Source of the DNA: Streptomyces antimycoticus
GTDB taxonomy: Bacteria; Actinomycetota; Actinomycetes; Streptomycetales; Streptomycetaceae
Length of the DNA stretch: 64,000 bases
Direction: 5' to 3'
Assembly: GCF_005405925.1 (NCBI RefSeq)
Contig: NZ_BJHV01000001.1
Location: 1,240,001 to 1,304,000 of the forward strand
Of this stretch, positions 7,987 through 64,000 are shown one piece after another (within the stretch, counting starts at the first letter, position 1; every line of letters starts with the position of its first letter). The position numbers were made by a program, and so were the translations under genes. Under the pieces are notes generated by a model, which did not search any database, had not been told where the DNA came from, and worked only from the letters and a program-made list of their open reading frames with translations.

Positions 7987-8643
7987 TCAGGCGGCGGGGA
8001 CGGTGCGGATGGCGGCGATGTCGAACTGGAGGCGGACCTTCTCACTCACCAGCGCGCCGCCCTCGGCCAGTCGGGCGTTGTAGGTCAGGCCCCATTCGGA
8101 GCGGTTGATGGTGGTGGTGCCGTCGAAGCCCGCCCGCTGGTAGCCGAAGGGGTCCGTGACATACCCGATGTAGGTGAGTTCCAGGACGACGGGGCGGGTG
8201 ATGTCTCTGATCGTGAGGTCCCCGATCATCCGGTAGACGTCCGGGCCCGCGAGTTCCACGGCGGTACTCGCGAACCGGATGTGGGGGTAGGTTCTGGCGT
8301 CCAGGAAGTCCCGGCCCATCAGGTGGTCGTCGCGCTGCTCGACACCGGTCTGGACACTGGCGGTGGACAGCAGGACCTCGGCCCGGGAACGGCGCGGGTC
8401 GCGGCCGTCGAAGTAGAGGCGGCTTTCGAATTCCGTGAAGGCGCCACGTACCGTGCTCACCATGGCGTGGCGGACGGAGAAACCGATCCGGCTGTGGGCC
8501 GGATCGACGATCCACTCTCCGGTGAGCGCCGCGAGGCCGGTATCCGGCACAGCGACGGCGCCGGACGTCGCCCGGGCAGGGGGTACCGCCGGTGCGGCGT
8601 TCGTGACCGCGCGACGGGAGGTACTGCGGCTGAACAGGTTCAT
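7987..8643 (-). CDS. YceI family lipid/isoprenoid-binding protein
   Basis: 218 residues from the ATG at 8643 (MNLFSRSTSRR). Contains a complete YceI lipocalin-like domain: WIVDPAHSRIGFSVRHAMVS, LSTASVQTGVEQRDDHLMGR, DFLDARTYPHIRFAS, GDLTIRDITRPVVLE and the closing WGLTYNARLAEGG-VSEKVRLQFDI. There is no signal peptide, only a short charged and Ala/Pro-rich N-terminal extension. Members bind polyprenyl or long-chain lipids in a beta-barrel. The promoter carries strong palindromes matching the style of MarR-type operators, but no MarR gene is adjacent here. The alternative start at 8664 adds seven residues and has no better ribosome-binding site. Confidence 0.88.
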   Translation of the reverse strand: MNLFSRSTSRRAVTNAAPAVPPARATSGAVAVPDTGLAALTGEWIVDPAHSRIGFSVRHAMVSTVRGAFTEFESRLYFDGRDPRRSRAEVLLSTASVQTGVEQRDDHLMGRDFLDARTYPHIRFASTAVELAGPDVYRMIGDLTIRDITRPVVLELTYIGYVTDPFGYQRAGFDGTTTINRSEWGLTYNARLAEGGALVSEKVRLQFDIAAIRTVPAA

Positions 8644-8683
8644 GCCACCTGTTGTTACTTTCAACTTAGGGGGTGACGCAACC

Positions 8684-8721
8684 CTTGATCAAGAGCAGTT
8701 ACTCAAGGATCTTGAGTAACT
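8684..8721. promoter_or_regulatory. Double palindromic operator upstream of the YceI gene
   Basis: A perfect 10-base palindrome CTTGATCAAG (8684-8693) is followed by AGTTACTCAAG-GAT-CTTGAGTAACT (8697-8721), an 11-base perfect inverted repeat. CTTGA half-sites recur in both. It lies 40-80 bases before the YceI start and about 150 bases before the divergent thioesterase-like gene. Confidence 0.6.
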
Positions 8722-8869
8722 ACGGCCGGGTACCCTCCGAGCGCGCTCACCAGTGGCCCGCACGAGGACACCCGTGCTCGACGCGGGGCGGCGTCCACAC
8801 GGCTGTATACGTCATCCTGGTCAACGCCCTCTGATCACCACCAAGTTCCCGCCCGAGGAGAAGTCCCCG

Positions 8870-9661
8870 TTGACCACCGACAGCTACTACGAGCCGATCG
8901 ATGAGCACCGCTACAAGCCCACCGCACACGTCAGTGGCGCCTGGAGCACCGACGAACAGCACTTCAGCCCGCTCGGCGGGCTGATCGTCCACGCCATCGA
9001 CCGCCACCTCGCCGCCCGGCCGCACACCGGGCTGCTCCTCAGCCGCATCAGCTTCGACATCCTCGGGCGCCTGGCCCTCGACGAGTGCGAGATCCGGGTG
9101 GAGACCGTCCGGCCCGGCCGCACCATCGAACTCATCGAGGCCGTCGTGCTCATCGCCGACCGCCCCGTGGTCCGGGCCCGCGCGTGGCTCCTCGCCACTG
9201 TGGACACCGCAGCCGTCGCCGGTGGCGCCGGGGACCGGCTGACCCCTCCCGAGAAGCTCGCCCCCTGGTCGATGGCCTCCCTGTGGCCCGGCGGATACAT
9301 CGCCTCCCTGGACTCCCGTCCGCTCGCGCCGCCCCAGCCGGGCCGCGCGACCGTCTGGGTCTCCACCCCGCTCGCCCTCGTGGCCGGGCAGACCAGCACC
9401 CCCCTGGCCTCGTACATCACGCTCGTCGACACCGCCAACGGGATCGCCGTACGACAGCCGCCCACCGCCTGGATGTTCCCCAACGTCGACCTGACCCTCC
9501 ACCTCCACCGCCAGCCCGAGGGCGGCTGGGCCGGGCTGGACACCACGGTCACCTTCGGTCCCACCGGCCAGGGCATCACCAGCACCGTGCTGCACGACCT
9601 GCGCGGCCCGATCGGACACGCCCAGCAGATCCTCACCGTCCGCCCCCTGCCCGGCGCCTGA
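8870..9661 (+). CDS. Thioesterase-like (double hot-dog, TesB-type) protein
   Basis: 263 residues from TTG 8870, chosen because GAGGAG lies 9 bases upstream and LTTDSYYEPIDEHRYKPTAH starts the conserved region. The protein resembles acyl-CoA thioesterase-like proteins made of two hot-dog folds: first fold around FSPLGGLIVHAIDRHLAARP, LLLSRISFDILGRLALDECE and RPGRTIELIEAVVLI; second fold around TPLASYITLVDTANGIAVRQ, WMFPNVDLTLHLHRQPEGGW and TTVTFGPTGQGITSTVLHDL. The substrate is not evident. Single gene with its own terminator. The upstream in-frame extension to 8753 is Arg/Pro-rich and not family-like. Confidence 0.75.
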   Translation: MTTDSYYEPIDEHRYKPTAHVSGAWSTDEQHFSPLGGLIVHAIDRHLAARPHTGLLLSRISFDILGRLALDECEIRVETVRPGRTIELIEAVVLIADRPVVRARAWLLATVDTAAVAGGAGDRLTPPEKLAPWSMASLWPGGYIASLDSRPLAPPQPGRATVWVSTPLALVAGQTSTPLASYITLVDTANGIAVRQPPTAWMFPNVDLTLHLHRQPEGGWAGLDTTVTFGPTGQGITSTVLHDLRGPIGHAQQILTVRPLPGA

Positions 9662-56762: not shown

Positions 56763-58406
56763 TCAGTCGGCGGAGAGCTGGGTGTTCGGCACCCGCCAGG
56801 CGGCGATCATGAAGGCGATCAGGCCCACGGCGGCCCCGGTGAGGAACACCACGCGCAGGGCGCTCACATAGCCCTCCAGGAACGGCTGCGCCACGCCCGG
56901 ATCGAGGTGGCGGAGGAAGGCCGAGTCCTCCAGGTTCACCCCGCCGTCGGGCCGCAGCACGCCCTTCAGCGCCTCCGCGTTCGCCGGTTCCCCGGCGAGC
57001 CGGCGGAACGACGCGTCCTGGGAGGCCACGGCCAGGCGCTCGCCGATCCGCGAACCGGCCAGGGAGAAGAGGATGGACAGGAAGGCGGCGGCGCCCACCG
57101 TGCCGCCGTTGGAGCGGAAGAAGTTCACCGACGCGGTGGCCGCTCCCATGTCCCGTCCGGGCACCTCGGACTGGGCGAGCGTGGTGATCGTCTGCATCGC
57201 CGCGCCCAGGCCCGCCCCCATGAACACCATGCCGATGGCGACGTACCACAGCGGGCTGTCGTCCCTCAGCGTGGCGAACACCAGCATCGAGACGGTGAGG
57301 GAGCCGACTCCCGCCACCAGATGGACCTTGAACCGGCCCGTCCGTGACATCAGCCGGCCCACCACCAGGGTCACCGCCACATTCGCCGCCATGGTGGGCA
57401 GCGTGGCCAGGCCCGCCTTCATCGGGCTCATGCCCTTGGCGAGCTGCAGATACAGCGGAAGGGTGGTCATGGCACCGAACATGGTGATGCCCACGGTGAA
57501 GTGCAGCACGGTGCCCAGCCGGAAGGCGCGGATGCGGAACAGCTTGACCGGCAGCAGCGCGGCGTCCGCCATCCGCCGCTCCAGCAGTACGAAGGAGACC
57601 AGCCCGACCACTCCCACCGCGTACATCACCAGCGCCCGGGGAGAGCCCCAGCCCCAGCTCCGCCCCTGTTCGGCGACGATGAGCAGGGGCACGATCCCGA
57701 CCGCCAGCGTCAGCGCCCCGCCGTAGTCAAGGCGGTGTCGTACGGGCTGGTGGGGCACGTGCAGCACCCGCAGGATCACCACGATGGCGAGCGCCGCCAG
57801 CGGTATGTTGACCAGGAAGATCCAGCGCCATCCGTCGAGCCCCAGCAGAGTGGCGCGCCCGGCGAACACCCCGCCCACCAGCGGGCCGACGACACTGGAG
57901 CCGGCGAACACCGCCGTGATGTAGCCCTGGTAGCGGCCGCGCTCCCGTGGCGAGGTGATGTCGGCGATGATCGTCATGGCGAGGGACATCAGTCCGCCAC
58001 CGCCGAGGCCCTGGACCGCCCGGAAGGCCGCGAGCTGGTGGATGGACGTGGCGAAACCGCACAGCAGCGACCCGAAGGTGAACAGCACGATGGCGGTCAG
58101 ATAGACCGGCCGGCGGCCGTAGATGTCCGAGAGCTTCCCGTACAGCGGGGTGACGATGGTGCCGGTGACGAGATAGGCGGTGGTCACCCACGCCTGGGCG
58201 GTGAGGCCGTGCAGATCGTCGGCGATGGTGCGCAGCGCCGAGGAGACCACGGTCTGGTCGAGCGCGGCGAGGAACATGCCGAGCATCAGTCCTGACAGCA
58301 CGGTGATGACCTGGCCGTGGGTCAGCCGGGCGTGGCTCTGGGGCTCGGTGGGCTCGGTGGGCTCGGTGGGCTCGGTGGGCTCGGTGGTGGTGGATGAGGA
58401 CGACAT
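56763..58406 (-). CDS. DHA2 family (EmrB/QacA) MFS drug exporter
   Basis: 547 residues, 14 membrane spans. Motifs: GMFLAALDQTVVSSALRTIA in helix 1, LYGKLSDIYGRRP (motif A), FRAVQGLGGGGLMSLAMTII and RERGRYQGYITAVFAGSSVV-GPLVGGVF (motif C, antiporter). Residues 8-22 are five Thr-Glu-Pro repeats encoded by a 9-bp microsatellite. Proton-driven efflux of hydrophobic compounds. Third gene of the set ugd - glycosyltransferase - exporter, 134 bases downstream of the glycosyltransferase gene. Confidence 0.93.
   Translation of the reverse strand: MSSSSTTTEPTEPTEPTEPTEPQSHARLTHGQVITVLSGLMLGMFLAALDQTVVSSALRTIADDLHGLTAQAWVTTAYLVTGTIVTPLYGKLSDIYGRRPVYLTAIVLFTFGSLLCGFATSIHQLAAFRAVQGLGGGGLMSLAMTIIADITSPRERGRYQGYITAVFAGSSVVGPLVGGVFAGRATLLGLDGWRWIFLVNIPLAALAIVVILRVLHVPHQPVRHRLDYGGALTLAVGIVPLLIVAEQGRSWGWGSPRALVMYAVGVVGLVSFVLLERRMADAALLPVKLFRIRAFRLGTVLHFTVGITMFGAMTTLPLYLQLAKGMSPMKAGLATLPTMAANVAVTLVVGRLMSRTGRFKVHLVAGVGSLTVSMLVFATLRDDSPLWYVAIGMVFMGAGLGAAMQTITTLAQSEVPGRDMGAATASVNFFRSNGGTVGAAAFLSILFSLAGSRIGERLAVASQDASFRRLAGEPANAEALKGVLRPDGGVNLEDSAFLRHLDPGVAQPFLEGYVSALRVVFLTGAAVGLIAFMIAAWRVPNTQLSAD
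58341..58388. repeat. 9-bp microsatellite in the exporter N-terminus
   Basis: GGGCTCGGT is repeated in tandem about five times, encoding (Thr-Glu-Pro)5 on the minus strand. The unit keeps frame, so copy-number change would only alter tail length. Confidence 0.9.
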
Positions 58407-58540
58407 ACGTACCTGCGAACCTTCTCTGCCGCGCGTGGGGCCGGGGAAAGCCGGGGCTCGAAGCCCGGAGCGGGGAGTCGAAGCCGGAGGCCGGGAAGAG
58501 CGGAGCCCGGGCGCGGGGCCCGGGCTCCGGGAGCCGGGTG

Positions 58541-59764
58541 TTATCCGGCCATCTTCTCCAGATCGGCTACGGCACTGTCGATCTCCGGCAGCGCCAGCAT
58601 CTCCAGCCGCGCCCGGCGGGCCAGGGCGCGGCAGTCGTCGTCGGCCAGCAGCTCACGGCAGACGGTGGTGATGCCGTCCGGCGTGGGGTCGGTGATGTGC
58701 CGGCCGAGGCCGAGTTCCTCGACCCGCTGTGCGTTCCCGGGCTGATCGCCGAACTGGGGCAGCACCGCCATCGGCGTGGCCGTGCGCAGCGATTCGCGGA
58801 TGCTGTTGAAGCCGCCGTGGGTGAGGAAGAGGTCCACGGATTCCAGCAGCAGGGGCTGTGGCAGCCGCTTGGTGAGGTGCACATGCGGCGGCACCCCGTC
58901 GGTGTCCACGGGGAGGCCGGCGGTGGCGAGGACGACGGTGCACTCCTCCAGCCGCGACACCCCCTGGATCATGGCGCGCAGGGTGTCCACCGGGTCCGGC
59001 AACGGCATGGGTGACGCGGGGATGTCCGCCTGGCTGTTGCCGTGGAACATGGGGATCGCGGTGCCGATGGCGGCGAACATCAGGGGCCGGTCGGTGGGCA
59101 GTTCGGCGACCCAGCGCGGCAGCACGGCGCCGCGGTCCACGTCCACCGTCTGCCGGTAGGACCAGGAGGCCGGCAGATGCCGGGCGAAGGAGAAGGCCGG
59201 TGGCACGTAGTCGATGCGCCCGTGCGGGATGAGCGACAGCGGGTCCTCGGCGGTGGCCAGCCCCCGCCGTTTCCGCAGGGCGTTGAGGCCCGGCAGGATG
59301 TCGGCCGGGTCGAGGGCGTTGGAGGCCCCTGAGGGGGTGGACAGCTGGGGTATGCCGAGCGCCTCGGCGATGACGCAGGAGGCGAGGTCCATGCCGTCGC
59401 GCAGGATCAGGTCGGGGCGGAAGTCGTGTGCCACGGGGAGCAGGGTGTCCAGCAGCATCGTGGCCATGGGGCCGGACACCGCCTTGGTCATGAGGCGCAG
59501 TATGCGCGCCTGCGGCGGCTCGCCGCCCGTCTCCGGCGGACCGCCCTGGGCGTTCTCCTCGGCCAGTACGGTGCCGAGGAAGGCGGACGGGCTGAAGTCG
59601 CCGATGGCACTCGTCACCCGCACCTCCTCCCGCTCGAACACGAAGGCGAGGGCAGGAGTGGTGACGACCAGCACCTCATGGCCGGCGGCCGCGAGGGACC
59701 GGGCCAGGGGAAGCTGGGCCCGGCCGTGGGAGGGGCTGCCGAGCGTGGTGAACATAACCCGCAA
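58541..59764 (-). CDS. GT1-family glycosyltransferase (macrolide/erythromycin CIII-like)
   Basis: 407 residues from TTG 59764 (AAAGG upstream; MRVMFTTLGSPSHGRAQLPL is the family start). N-terminal acceptor domain with GHEVLVVTTPALAFVFEREE and PDLILRDGMDLASCVIAEAL; C-terminal nucleotide-sugar domain with VVLATAGLPVDTDGVPPHVH, then LTHGGFNSIRESLRTATPMA and VLPQFGDQPGNAQRVEELGL. This is the GT-B fold of natural-product and detoxifying glycosyltransferases. It lies 54 bases behind ugd, so UDP-glucuronate is a plausible donor. Acceptor unknown. Confidence 0.9.
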   Translation of the reverse strand: MRVMFTTLGSPSHGRAQLPLARSLAAAGHEVLVVTTPALAFVFEREEVRVTSAIGDFSPSAFLGTVLAEENAQGGPPETGGEPPQARILRLMTKAVSGPMATMLLDTLLPVAHDFRPDLILRDGMDLASCVIAEALGIPQLSTPSGASNALDPADILPGLNALRKRRGLATAEDPLSLIPHGRIDYVPPAFSFARHLPASWSYRQTVDVDRGAVLPRWVAELPTDRPLMFAAIGTAIPMFHGNSQADIPASPMPLPDPVDTLRAMIQGVSRLEECTVVLATAGLPVDTDGVPPHVHLTKRLPQPLLLESVDLFLTHGGFNSIRESLRTATPMAVLPQFGDQPGNAQRVEELGLGRHITDPTPDGITTVCRELLADDDCRALARRARLEMLALPEIDSAVADLEKMAG

Positions 59765-59818
59765 CGCAGGGGCCTTTCTGTGGGAAGGGTCTCGTACGGC
59801 GAGAGAGGGCCGGGGCGC

Positions 59819-61132
59819 TCAGCCCGCCATCGCGAGCGTGCGGCCGATGCCCTCGCAGGTCAGCCCGGCGCGGCGGAGCCGGTCCGGGTCCAGGAGGTTG
59901 CGGAAGTCGTAGACGTGCGGGGATCCGAGCAGTCCGGCGATGTGCTCCCAGTCGAGGTCGCGGAACTCCGGCCACTCGGTGAGCACGAGGCAGGCGCGCG
60001 CTCCCCTCAGAGCCTCCTCGGGGGTGTCGGCGAGGGTGAGCAGATCACTGAGGTCGGGGCGGGTCTCGCTGAGGGCGGGGTCGTAGGCGTGGAGCTCGGC
60101 GCCCCGCTCCTTGAGCAGCCGGGCGATGGCCAGGGCCGGTGAGTCGCGCAGGTCGGAGGTGCCCGCCTTGAAGGCCAGGCCCAGCACGGCCAGCCGTACG
60201 CCGCGCAGCGAGCCGTCGCCCGGTGTGCACCCGGCCACCACCCGCTCGACGAGCCGCCGCTGGTGCTCGACGTTGGTCTCGATGGTGGCGCCCAGCAGCG
60301 GGAAGTCCACGCCCGACTCCTGGCAGATGGTCAGCAGCGCGTGGGTGTCCTTGGGCAGGCAGGAGCCGCCCCAGCCGGGGCCCGGCCGCAGGAACGCCGA
60401 GCCGATGCGGGGGTCGTGGCCGATGCCCGCGAGCACATCGTCCACATCGGCGCCGAAGTGCTCGCACAGCGTGGCGAGGTTGTTGGCGAAGGAGAGCTTC
60501 ATGGCCAGGAAGAAGTTGGCCGCGTACTTGGCGAGTTCGGCGCCCGCGGCGTCGGTGAGCACCAGCGGGGCGTCGAGTCCGGCGTACAGGCCCGCCACCC
60601 GCCGCGCCGCGTCCTGGTCCGCGGCGCCGACCACGATGCGGTCGGGGTGGAGGAAGTCACGCACCGCGTAACCCTCGCGGAGGAACTCCGGGTTGCTCAC
60701 CACGGCCACGTCCGGACGGTTCAGCAGCGCGGCGACGCGCTCGGCGGTGCCGACGGGCACGGTGGACTTGTTGACCACCACGCTGCCGTGCGGCAGCTCG
60801 TCGCGGATCTGGTCCGCCACGGCCTCGACGGCGGCCAGGTCGGCGGCGCCGCCGACACCCATCGGGGTCGGCAGGCACAGGAACACCACATCGGCGTCGG
60901 CGACCGCGGCCCGGGTGTCCCGGATGAACTCCAGCCGCCCCGAGTCCAGTCCCTCGCGGACGAGTTCGGGTAGGCGGGGCTCGAGGATGTCGACCTCTCC
61001 CCGCCCGAGCCGCTCGACCTTGTGACGGTCGGTGTCCGCGCACACCACTCGATGGCCGAGGGCGGCCAGACAGGCGCCGGTGGTCAGTCCGACGTATCCG
61101 GTGCCCACCACGGCAACGCGTCGTATCTGCAC
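59819..61132 (-). CDS. ugd: UDP-glucose 6-dehydrogenase
   Basis: 437 residues from GTG 61132. Oxidises UDP-glucose to UDP-glucuronate with 2 NAD. Rossmann motif VAVVGTGYVGLTTGACLA, VVNKSTVPVGTAERV, SNPEFLREGYAVRDFLHPDR, catalytic Lys212 (FLAMKLSFANN) and Cys258 (WGGSCLPKDTHAL), and the C-terminal UDP-binding domain AVLGLAFKAGTSDLRDSPAL. First gene of the set with a glycosyltransferase and exporter; divergent from a TetR gene with several palindromes between. Confidence 0.95.
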   Translation of the reverse strand: MQIRRVAVVGTGYVGLTTGACLAALGHRVVCADTDRHKVERLGRGEVDILEPRLPELVREGLDSGRLEFIRDTRAAVADADVVFLCLPTPMGVGGAADLAAVEAVADQIRDELPHGSVVVNKSTVPVGTAERVAALLNRPDVAVVSNPEFLREGYAVRDFLHPDRIVVGAADQDAARRVAGLYAGLDAPLVLTDAAGAELAKYAANFFLAMKLSFANNLATLCEHFGADVDDVLAGIGHDPRIGSAFLRPGPGWGGSCLPKDTHALLTICQESGVDFPLLGATIETNVEHQRRLVERVVAGCTPGDGSLRGVRLAVLGLAFKAGTSDLRDSPALAIARLLKERGAELHAYDPALSETRPDLSDLLTLADTPEEALRGARACLVLTEWPEFRDLDWEHIAGLLGSPHVYDFRNLLDPDRLRRAGLTCEGIGRTLAMAG

Positions 61133-61267
61133 AGGGGTTCACCACTTCTGCTGGGGGTCAGATGCGGGCACGTGGCAAGAGCCGGCCCGGCGGCCGCCCA
61201 GTCACAGACGAGCGGGCCGGACACTCTCGTCCGGCCGGGACCGCGCGAGCCGGCGACCAAAGTCACC

Positions 61268-61311
61268 ACGCGTTGACAAAACATAACGCGTTGACCCCGA
61301 TCTTGGTCAAC
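61268..61311. promoter_or_regulatory. Operator/promoter region of the ugd operon
   Basis: ACGCGTTGAC occurs at 61268-61277 and again at 61286-61295 (18-base spacing). GTTGACC (61290-61296) pairs perfectly with GGTCAAC (61305-61311). On the minus strand TTGACC (61310-61305) can be a -35 box with TTATGT about 18 bases on as -10, so the repeats overlap the ugd promoter. Confidence 0.6.
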
Positions 61312-61396
61312 AAGTGATGACAACGGTGGATGACTTCTGGACATGCGAGGCTGAACCGGCAGCATGTACGGCACGGTCCAGGCGGAGGTACGACAA

Positions 61397-62025
61397 GTGA
61401 ACCGGGCAAGCGACCCGCGAGGGTGCGACGATCTCCCCCGCGCGCCCGCAGATACGACGCGGCGGGCACGCGCAGCGCACTGCTGGGGGCCGCCGCGCTG
61501 CGTTTCGCCAGGTACGGCTACGACCGCTGCAGCGTGCGCGACATCGCCAAGGACGCGGGGGTGGACGCCGCTCTGGTCTACCGCTATTTCGGCTCAAAGG
61601 AGGCGCTGTTCGACGCCGTCTCGACCAGCACCGGCCTGTTCGAACCGCTGCGCCATCTGCCACTGGACGGGGTGTCGGCGTGGATCTGCGATGTGGTCTC
61701 GATGGGGCCCACCGAGGAAGAGGCCCCGCATCCGCTGCTGACCAAGCTCCGCTCCTCCAGCCGGGAGGAGACCGTGGGGCGGCTGCGCGAGGAGGTCACC
61801 GAGGTGTTCTCGCAAGGGTTCGCGCGGCGTCTGGAGGGCGAGGACGCCGAGCTGCGGGCCGAGTTGCTGGCCGCGTGGCTGATGGGCATCACCCTGCTAC
61901 GGCTGGCCATCCGCTCACCGGCGCTGGCCGCCACGCCGGACGACACGCTGCTGCGCTTCCTGCGGGCCGGTATCGATCCGCTGCTGGACGCGGACTGCCC
62001 CGGGCGCGGAAGCGAGGACCGCTGA
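61397..62025 (+). CDS. TetR family regulator, frameshifted near N-terminus
   Basis: GTG 61397 has a perfect GGAGG 8 bases upstream. One extra C in the C5 run 61435-61439 gives VNRASDPRGCDDLPPRARRY and leads into the HTH (RSALLGAAALRFARYGYDRC, SVRDIAKDAGVDAALVYRYF, GSKEALFDAV), 209 residues in all. The C-terminal TetR_C domain (LLTKLRSSSREETVGRLREE, LAAWLMGITLLRLAIRS) belongs to the group controlling drug exporters. Divergent from ugd and likely repressor of the ugd-glycosyltransferase-exporter set. Confidence 0.87.
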
Positions 62026-62071: not shown

Positions 62072-62944
62072 CTAGACGTTCGGCACGCGCAGCTTGTCCC
62101 AGCTGGTCTTGCCGGGGATGCCGTCCGCGTCATCGCCGGAGTAGCCCAGTTTGCGCTGCCAGGCCGCGTAGGACTTGCGGTCCGCCTCGGTCCAGTCGGG
62201 GCTCGGGCCCTCCTCGTAGCGTCCGCAGCCCTCGGCCACCAGCCGCTTGCCCATCGCCGTGATGATCTTGCTTACCCGGCCGGAGCGGAAGAAGTCGGCG
62301 CCCGGGAACGGCTCATAGGTCGCCGGCGGCTTGGGGGCCGGGCCGTCCGGTTTGGCACCGAGCCGCTTGGCGATGCGGCCGCGCATGGAGTCCATCGTGA
62401 AGCCACGCGGGTCGATCTTGCCCGGCTGCCACTCCAGATGGCCGATCACCGACCGCTGGGTCCAGCCGTGGGCGCGGCAGATGGCCGCGGACACCTTCTC
62501 GATGGCCAGCTTCTGCGCCTCCGGCCACGGGTCCTCGCCATCGCCGAGGTTGATGCACTCGAAGCCGTAGAAGTGGCGGTTGCCGTCGGTGTCCGCCTCG
62601 TTGTCCGGCGGCAGCGCGGATTCGTCGACGACGGCTCTGAGCACGTCGCTGTCGCCGAGCCCCGCGTGGTTGGCGCGGCCGTGGCCGACCATGTGGACCG
62701 CGCCGGCCTTGTCGATGACGCCGTGGCACAGCGGCCCCGGCAGCGCGGAGTGTCCCTCGTAGCACAGCTCCACGGAGGAGTCCGTGCCCTTGGTGACGGT
62801 GTGGTGGATCATCACCCCGTTGACCGGGCCCCAGGGGCCCTTGGAGTTGCGGTTGTGAGTGCGCCAGTCGCGGTACTCATGGACTTCCAGTCCCTCGTCG
62901 CGAAGCGCCTTGAGCAGACGGTCGGCGGTGAGCGGCGTGGCCAT
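62072..62944 (-). CDS. Phage-type N-acetylmuramoyl-L-alanine amidase with peptidoglycan-binding tail
   Basis: 290 residues from ATG 62944 (AAGGAG upstream). Amidase_2 domain residues about 40-175: NGVMIHHTVTKG (zinc His), CHGVIDKAGAVHMVGHGRAN, FYGFECINLGDGEDPWPEAQ, SVIGHLEWQPGKIDPRGFTM (second zinc His). A Pro-rich linker follows, then a C-terminal domain SPDWTEADRKSYAAWQRKLG and DGIPGKTSWDKLRVP, as in endolysins of Streptomyces phages. No signal peptide. It follows a DUF6519 gene on the same strand, which suggests a lysin belonging to a phage-tail-like particle. Confidence 0.9.
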   Translation of the reverse strand: MATPLTADRLLKALRDEGLEVHEYRDWRTHNRNSKGPWGPVNGVMIHHTVTKGTDSSVELCYEGHSALPGPLCHGVIDKAGAVHMVGHGRANHAGLGDSDVLRAVVDESALPPDNEADTDGNRHFYGFECINLGDGEDPWPEAQKLAIEKVSAAICRAHGWTQRSVIGHLEWQPGKIDPRGFTMDSMRGRIAKRLGAKPDGPAPKPPATYEPFPGADFFRSGRVSKIITAMGKRLVAEGCGRYEEGPSPDWTEADRKSYAAWQRKLGYSGDDADGIPGKTSWDKLRVPNV

Positions 62945-63021
62945 GGATGTGCTCCTTAGGGATTCGGCATGGTGATGTACGGATGCCACGGTCACGGAAC
63001 TCAATGGGCTCCGGACCGGGC

Positions 63022-64000
63022 CTACGCTTCCGGTTCGGCGCCCTTCCCGGCCCTGGTCTCGGCATCCGCCGCGGCCTCCGCCGCGAGCGCCTGCGCGTCC
63101 GCGGCCGGGGCGGGCGTGGCCAGCGGCCCGAACACCATCCGCAGATCCAGCTCCGCCTGTTCGGCCGTCACCCACGCCAGCGGGGCGTAGTGCACCTGGA
63201 TCCCGGCCGGGGCCTGGAGCAGCGGGGTGCGGGCCGCGTTCACCGGCCACTCCACGGTGCCGGTGGCGGTGCGGGCCGGAATCAGCCAGTGGTCCCCGGA
63301 GCGGTAGGCGCCGTCGGGGGCGAAGTACACCTCGACGCCGTCCTCCAGGGGCAGCCAGCGGCCCTCCTCGACCTTGAGCGCTCCGTGCTTCAGCCGCGCG
63401 GCCGCGCCCTTGCGCGGGCGCCGGGCGCTCTCCAGGTGGTCCCAGCGGCGCAGGAACGGCCGCAGCTCCGGGCGGCGTCCGACGCCCGGCTCCGGCTCAC
63501 CGGACAGCCGCACCCGCCGCCCCGGCAGGTCGACCTCCTCCACCCGCAGCAGCGGCAGCGGCTCACCCCGGCTGGTGTAGGCGGTGTCCACGAACTCCAC
63601 CAGGTCCCCGACGCCCAGATCCAGCTTGTCGTCGCCGCCCAGTGACGCCAACTCCACCCAGGTGCCGTCGAGTTCATCGACCGGGAAGACCACCGAACCG
63701 TTCTCCCGGGACCATTTGAAGGTCGCCTCCTTCGCCGTACCGCCGTCGTGGATCTCCACCCGGTACAGCTGGTTCTCCGGGCCCCGGTAACGGGCGTCCG
63801 GCCGCACCAGGCAGGGGTCCTCATCCGCGTGTTCCGGCCGCTCGCCGCGGGCCGCCAGCCGGGACCCGGGCGCCGACGCCTTCCGCGCCCACGCCTCGAA
63901 CGCCTTGCCGACCTGGTCCTTGTTCGCCCCTTCCGGGTTCTCCAGCTCCAGGGCCGAGCCCTCCAGCGGCAGCACCTGCCAGACCACCTTGACCCGCGCC
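63022..64000 (-). CDS. DUF6519 domain protein, 5' end outside window
   Basis: Only the last 325 or so codons are visible; the frame is open through the right edge. DUF6519-like features: NQLYRVEIHDGGTAKEATFK and WSRENGSVVFPVDELDGTWV, then beta-rich repeats (DLVEFVDTAYTSRGEPLPLL, GVEVYFAPDGAYRSGDHWLI) and an Ala/Glu-rich tail. Such proteins occur in clusters for contractile or phage-tail-like particles (family knowledge), with a presumed structural or adhesin role. 77 bases upstream of the amidase gene on the same strand. Confidence 0.75.
   Translation of the reverse strand, partial: ARVKVVWQVLPLEGSALELENPEGANKDQVGKAFEAWARKASAPGSRLAARGERPEHADEDPCLVRPDARYRGPENQLYRVEIHDGGTAKEATFKWSRENGSVVFPVDELDGTWVELASLGGDDKLDLGVGDLVEFVDTAYTSRGEPLPLLRVEEVDLPGRRVRLSGEPEPGVGRRPELRPFLRRWDHLESARRPRKGAAARLKHGALKVEEGRWLPLEDGVEVYFAPDGAYRSGDHWLIPARTATGTVEWPVNAARTPLLQAPAGIQVHYAPLAWVTAEQAELDLRMVFGPLATPAPAADAQALAAEAAADAETRAGKGAEPEA

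Follow-up and report, generated by a model that had tools for sequence, protein, structure and literature searches.

A 64,000-nucleotide stretch of the Streptomyces antimycoticus genome (hereafter the window; the whole genome spans 11.17 Mb on 3 contigs) holds a small operon that we lean towards reading as a TetR-repressed conjugate-and-export system, with glucuronate as the tag, polyketide- or phenol-like compounds as the targets, and a protective rather than a synthetic role. Its open reading frames lie on the minus strand in the order ugd, gt, mfs, with tetR divergent on the plus strand (Table 1). These four genes had been named in an original prediction made from the sequence, and their coordinates and families were borne out by a check of the open reading frames and by Pfam scores over the cut-offs. 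In the mechanism that we propose, a small molecule that probably resembles a polyketide or a phenol would release TetR. UGD would then oxidise UDP-glucose to UDP-glucuronate and the glycosyltransferase (GT) would move the glucuronate onto a hydroxyl of the small molecule. The added charge would hinder re-entry, and the MFS protein would expel the conjugate.

A conserved four-gene unit

A scan of genome contigs with the GT as query gave 37 loci, 36 from Streptomyces and one from Actinopolyspora; locus L080 was added later, for a total of 38. The nearest loci belong to Streptomyces such as S. niphimycinicus, S. samsunensis and S. violaceusniger. When gene adjacency is scored, the three-gene order with a divergent tetR proves to be conserved in other genomes, the complete block being present in 26 of the 37 loci (27 of 38 with L080). 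One more locus, L020, has tetR, ugd and gt before its contig ends after gt, and another, L023, has ugd, gt and mfs without tetR. In L080 (genome G009, 8359-9563) the GT is split over two frames, with the break near residue 290, and the operon is otherwise complete.

A draw of 199 Streptomyces genomes shows a similar association, although it overlaps the set of GT loci (e.g. genome G150 is locus L008 by coordinates) and is therefore not independent. The GT was found in 19 of these genomes (E<=1e-80), UGD in 12 (E<=1e-115) and MFS in 24 (E<=1e-150). Close UGD (at least 77% identity) and close MFS (at least 73%) occur in the identical 11 genomes, each adjoining a GT. The remaining 15 MFS places are at 47-53% identity, and none has a UGD beside it in the stretch examined. 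The proteins also vary together: across 28 operons the mean pairwise identity is 80% for UGD, 79% for MFS, 64% for GT and 64% for TetR, and identities correlate with those of UGD at 0.89-0.93. The complete order at 26 of the 37 loci and the shared 11 genomes argue for one inherited unit, in keeping with the single operon originally predicted.

The surroundings of this unit are much less constant. The 27 operons compared (the window included, L080 left out) fall into 12 flank groups, between which fewer than two flanking gene families are shared, as judged from simple gene calls of our own. The block is thus preserved while its context changes. Within ~10 kb the operons showed no biosynthetic neighbour in common; distant clusters were not compared, nor were host compounds made elsewhere searched. 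Together with the drug-pump and TetR layout, this favours protection over synthesis.

Pairing of the dehydrogenase and the transferase

The three Pfam domains of UGD score 189, 119 and 107 bits, all over the cut-offs, and the protein matches TIGR03026 at 423 bits, also over the cut-off. It falls below the TuaD and AglM equivalog cut-offs (NF047673, 412.5 of 700 bits; NF041297, 342.9 of 670 bits), and since only the broad model is passed it is not filed as either. Its best solved-structure matches are the UDP-glucose dehydrogenases 4a7p and 2y0e. Residues C258, K202, N206, E149, T124 and D262, which include the catalytic Cys/Lys/Asp set, are conserved in 32 of 32 aligned rows. The three-domain architecture and this residue set place the protein among the UDP-glucose 6-dehydrogenases, and the apparently intact active site supports the function first predicted for it.

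How often GT1-type and UGD-family genes lie close together was gauged in 41 genomes. These contain 136 PF00201 matches, of which 2 have a listed PF03721 match at a distance of 5 kb or less, and both are the operon; the next-closest pair among the matches listed is 7 kb apart (genome G021). These pairs were read by eye from the PF03721 matches as listed, without the weakest.

The pairing does recur outside the full operon. A second UGD group comprises two matches at 58-59% identity (genomes G180 and G063), each directly 5' of a GT of the same family (45% and 40%). In S. himastatinicus (G180, locus L079) the pair, with UGD at 58%, sits inside a type I polyketide synthase (PKS) cluster that also has a DegT aminotransferase, a pyranose-oxidase-like GMC enzyme and a ThiO-like oxidase. 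Locus L135 (G063), again with UGD at 58%, has a similar sub-cluster, recognised by eye; no PKS gene was seen on its contig, which is short. A GT, a methyltransferase, the DegT aminotransferase, the ThiO-like and pyranose-oxidase-like enzymes, UGD and the second GT are shared by L079 (8493-17585) and L135 (3804-12845), the families having been tested for L079 only, and this sub-cluster is possibly an unusual sugar pathway.

A class-wide scan (394 genomes from 137 genera, Streptomyces included) found UGD above 62% identity only in the host's own genome. Four genomes hold six further places, at 49-62%, and five of the six were fetched. One of these, L146, comes from a different family of the class; its UGD is at 60%, and a GT at 43% starts ~20 bp behind the UGD frame. 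Because UGD of this kind is repeatedly paired with transferases of this family, UDP-glucuronate is the most likely donor, as far as can be judged from sequence.

The operon ugd is an extra copy. The host genome has further UGD-family genes, and each of the 12 genomes tested, including 7 that lack the operon copy, has a UGD-like gene at 41-45% identity. Locus L039 retains a 47-residue ugd remnant after the operator, which points to secondary loss of the gene there. In a GT tree of 47 rows (L043, with a cut GT, and L044, with a score under the cut-off, were left out) the members that lack ugd or stand alone are scattered among the ugd-bearing ones, with several inner branches weak. Given this scatter and the remnant, the full operon probably came first, and ugd was then lost in some lines.

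Regulator, exporter and the case for protection

TetR has a family helix-turn-helix domain (TetR_N, 57 bits, over the Pfam cut-off) and a conserved, palindrome-like predicted site between the divergent genes, as expected of a repressor with its own operator. The core TGTCAnCnnnnnTTGAC has 32 sites in 30 of the 38 loci against 0.2 expected by first-order resampling, an enrichment that is partly by construction because the pattern was derived from the same loci. It occurs once or twice in all 27 full operons, where it is placed between tetR and ugd, and in L023, L032 and L039; in L032, which has no ugd, the site is directly before gt. In L020, which has tetR, the exact core is missing. The TTGAC of the core fits a -35 element, and a plausible -10 is present in many loci, not all. 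The second of two further inverted repeats, ACGCGTTATGTTTTGTCAACGCGT, is wholly or mostly present in several near relatives. A predicted conserved operator at the -35 supports the TetR control originally proposed.

The listed tetR start (61330) falls within the predicted operator, and in L008 and L014 TetR residues 1-37 align in a different frame from the remainder. These two observations suggest that the true start is probably downstream, e.g. at GTG 61423, giving 200 aa.

The exporter was predicted to be a DHA2 antiporter, an assignment that holds up: it scores 194 bits for MFS_1 (over the Pfam cut-off) and 250 bits for TIGR00711 against a cut-off of 230.2. Its best-scoring NCBIfam models are those of the tetracycline exporters OtrB and Tcr3, at 471 of 999 and 438 of 1000 bits, so it is not filed as a member of either. 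As a side observation, the exporter opens with a PTE repeat (window 58340-58400), and the alignment of several relatives starts only at about residue 26. Elsewhere, locus L150 (6343-14152) has an OtrB-like MFS (45%) and, adjoining it, a distant GT1. The cluster around them resembles type II PKS systems: it holds two ketosynthases, an ACP and a polyketide cyclase, a hint of aromatic polyketides.

OtrB and Tcr3 are self-resistance pumps of producers, and a near-relative UGD-GT pair lies within a PKS cluster (L079). Both fit an operon that handles a product of the host itself, a metabolite or signal made by a distant cluster, by glycosylating and exporting it for self-protection or tailoring. We consider this unlikely. 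The operon is patchily distributed (11 of 199 genomes), and its 12 flank groups show no constant partner cluster within the ~10 kb compared. Furthermore, the 29-base operator pattern, with up to 3 mismatches allowed, has one match in the host genome, with 0 mismatches (a backward control also gave one), and so offers no hint that this TetR also controls a cluster elsewhere. A remote regulon was rejected on the same result. A known defence system was also rejected, as the four proteins have no PADLOC match.

The transferase and its sugar donor

The GT starts at TTG 59764, and its relatives share the same MRV beginning. It exceeds the Pfam cut-offs for the EryCIII-like N (40 bits), EryCIII-like C (55 bits) and UDPGT (38 bits) models, and its AlphaFold model (pLDDT 87, pTM 0.85) has a GT-B fold, which together place it among the EryCIII-like GT1 enzymes. 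The closest fold matches are natural-product glycosyltransferases, with CalG1 first and OleD among them. The modelled fold is of that general kind, not specifically that of a glucuronosyltransferase. The protein is far below the cut-off of the activator-dependent transferases (TIGR04516, 86.3 of 440 bits), whose operons carry a P450-like activator partner; none is present in this one. It is also below the NCBIfam cut-offs of the macrolide-inactivating enzymes (Mgt, 55.9 of 700 bits; OleI, 52.2 of 700 bits).

Four arginines, R15, R122, R323 and R327, are candidates for holding a carboxylate. They are present in all 11 UGD-paired rows compared (from the operon, L079 and L135, and L146) and also in three lone relatives. 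In a rough alignment with six further GT1 proteins from the host, none of the six has Arg at R15, R122 or R323, and one has it at R327. L077, a relative without UGD, lacks R323 and R327. An arms race in the acceptor domain is not claimed, the mean identity over 28 operons differing only slightly between the N half (61.4%) and the C half (66.5%).

A number of results weigh against a glucuronate donor. Three of the 38 loci have gt and mfs without ugd (L019, L032 and L039, with tetR kept in L032), and in six more the GT has no partner beside it (L016, L017, L027, L038, L043 and L044), two of these being cut by contig ends (L043 upstream, L038 downstream). Of the five fetched UGD-kin places outside the genus, four have no family GT nearby. 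The nearest solved transferases, we assume, use other sugars. The arginine of plant UBGAT-type enzymes is absent: position 22 of the PSPG box, which we take to be the plant glucuronate-binding site and which bears on the plant type only, maps to F319 in the operon family and to Y in the distant kin aligned. The GTs of loci without ugd show no consistent difference from the others at family-invariant positions, and an attempt to read the donor from such residues was given up for want of a contrast. Finally, seven of the genomes that hold these nine loci were searched and all carry another UGD-like gene at 42-45% identity (two of the matches cross one stop); either that gene supplies UDP-glucuronate or the GT needs none. 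Since some lines do without ugd beside the GT, the GT may use another donor, or a second UGD may supply UDP-glucuronate.

One form of this alternative is that the GT uses UDP-glucose, as in macrolide inactivation of the Mgt/OleD type, or another NDP-sugar, while UGD tunes the pool or serves otherwise. The loss of ugd in some lineages and the kinship of the fold with natural-product transferases, OleD included, are consistent with it. That said, the UGD-GT pairing recurs in separate settings with a dedicated UGD clade, and UGD would use up the very donor that the GT required, which makes this account quite improbable. That the operon builds and exports a glycolipid or surface compound carrying glucuronate is very improbable indeed: an MFS protein could export a lipid and UGD commonly feeds polymers, but the operon has a single GT, of a natural-product family, its genes include neither a polymerase nor a flippase, and the layout is that of a TetR-controlled drug pump. 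We retain conjugation with glucuronate followed by export as the preferred reading.

Features and neighbouring genes

The original prediction noted that no biosynthetic enzymes adjoin the operon, and none of its neighbours within the stretch examined forms a biosynthetic cluster. On the exporter side Pfam identifies a short-chain dehydrogenase/reductase (SDR) and an MLTR-type regulator. The tetR side carries an amidase, DUF6519 and Phage_base_V or baseplate-like genes, which continue outside the window as a cluster resembling a phage tail or contractile injection system (window 62072-64000 and L138 1-12000). The gaps within the operon are 54 bp between ugd and gt and 134 bp between gt and mfs.

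Table 1. Positions of the operon genes and of the predicted regulatory elements in the window
Feature	Position	Strand	Basis or detail
ugd, UDP-glucose 6-dehydrogenase-type, 437 aa, first gene of the operon	59819..61132	-	Pfam PF03721/PF00984/PF03720
gt, GT1-fold glycosyltransferase, 407 aa, TTG start	58541..59764	-	Pfam
mfs, DHA2 (EmrB-type) MFS exporter, 547 aa, N-terminal PTE repeat	56763..58406	-	TIGR00711
tetR, TetR-family regulator, divergent	61330..62025	+	PF00440, PF17920
Predicted TetR operator GTCATCCACCGTTGTCATCACTTGTTGAC	61306..61334	-	Core TGTCAnCnnnnnTTGAC
Predicted ugd promoter	61280..61310	-	-35 TTGACC inside operator, 19-base spacer, -10 TATGTT
Two further inverted repeats GTTGACCAAGATCGGGGTCAAC, ACGCGTTATGTTTTGTCAACGCGT	61268..61311	-	

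Significance and comparison with known systems

To our knowledge, bacterial inactivation of antibiotics by glycosylation is mainly known with glucose. If our reading is correct, a conserved operon with its own supply of UDP-glucuronate would be a new variant of this chemistry and a source of glucuronosyltransferases for the production of drug metabolites. We found no literature on a gene for a Streptomyces glucuronosyltransferase in a search that was incomplete, and the novelty is accordingly provisional. One report describes the glucuronidation of quercetin by Streptomyces M52104 (PMC9728256); the operon may offer a testable genetic basis for this activity.

A broader proposal can be made tentatively, and we would give it somewhat less than even chances. 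On this view bacteria have a dedicated phase II/III system, of which the operon is possibly the first gene set to be described: glucuronidation and export would be inducible, and a separate arginine signature of the GT would hold glucuronate. The system would be spreading as a four-gene block between Streptomyces, as judged from the flank contexts, and could explain the known glucuronidation of phenols in this genus.

Several known systems resemble parts of the operon. The calicheamicin glycosyltransferase CalG1 is the best match of the GT in both fold and sequence (29% identity over 378 residues), although CalG1 is biosynthetic and takes a dTDP-sugar. The pairing of OleI/OleD with the OleB pump, and Mgt self-protection, likewise join a GT1-fold transferase to an exporter; those transferases use UDP-glucose and have no dedicated ugd. 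The L079 and L135 pairs, like the operon, place UGD immediately ahead of a GT from the same family, whereas L079 has a biosynthetic setting and neither locus showed kin of the operon TetR or MFS. The proposed chemistry is the same as that of animal UGT glucuronidation and efflux, with a UGD, a GT1 transferase and a pump. Kinship with the animal enzymes is remote (the C-terminal part of UGT2B7, E 4.2e-5), and the bacterial genes, unlike the animal ones, form a single unit under TetR. In its outline the operon probably resembles animal drug clearance, where a glucuronic acid tag is followed by export.

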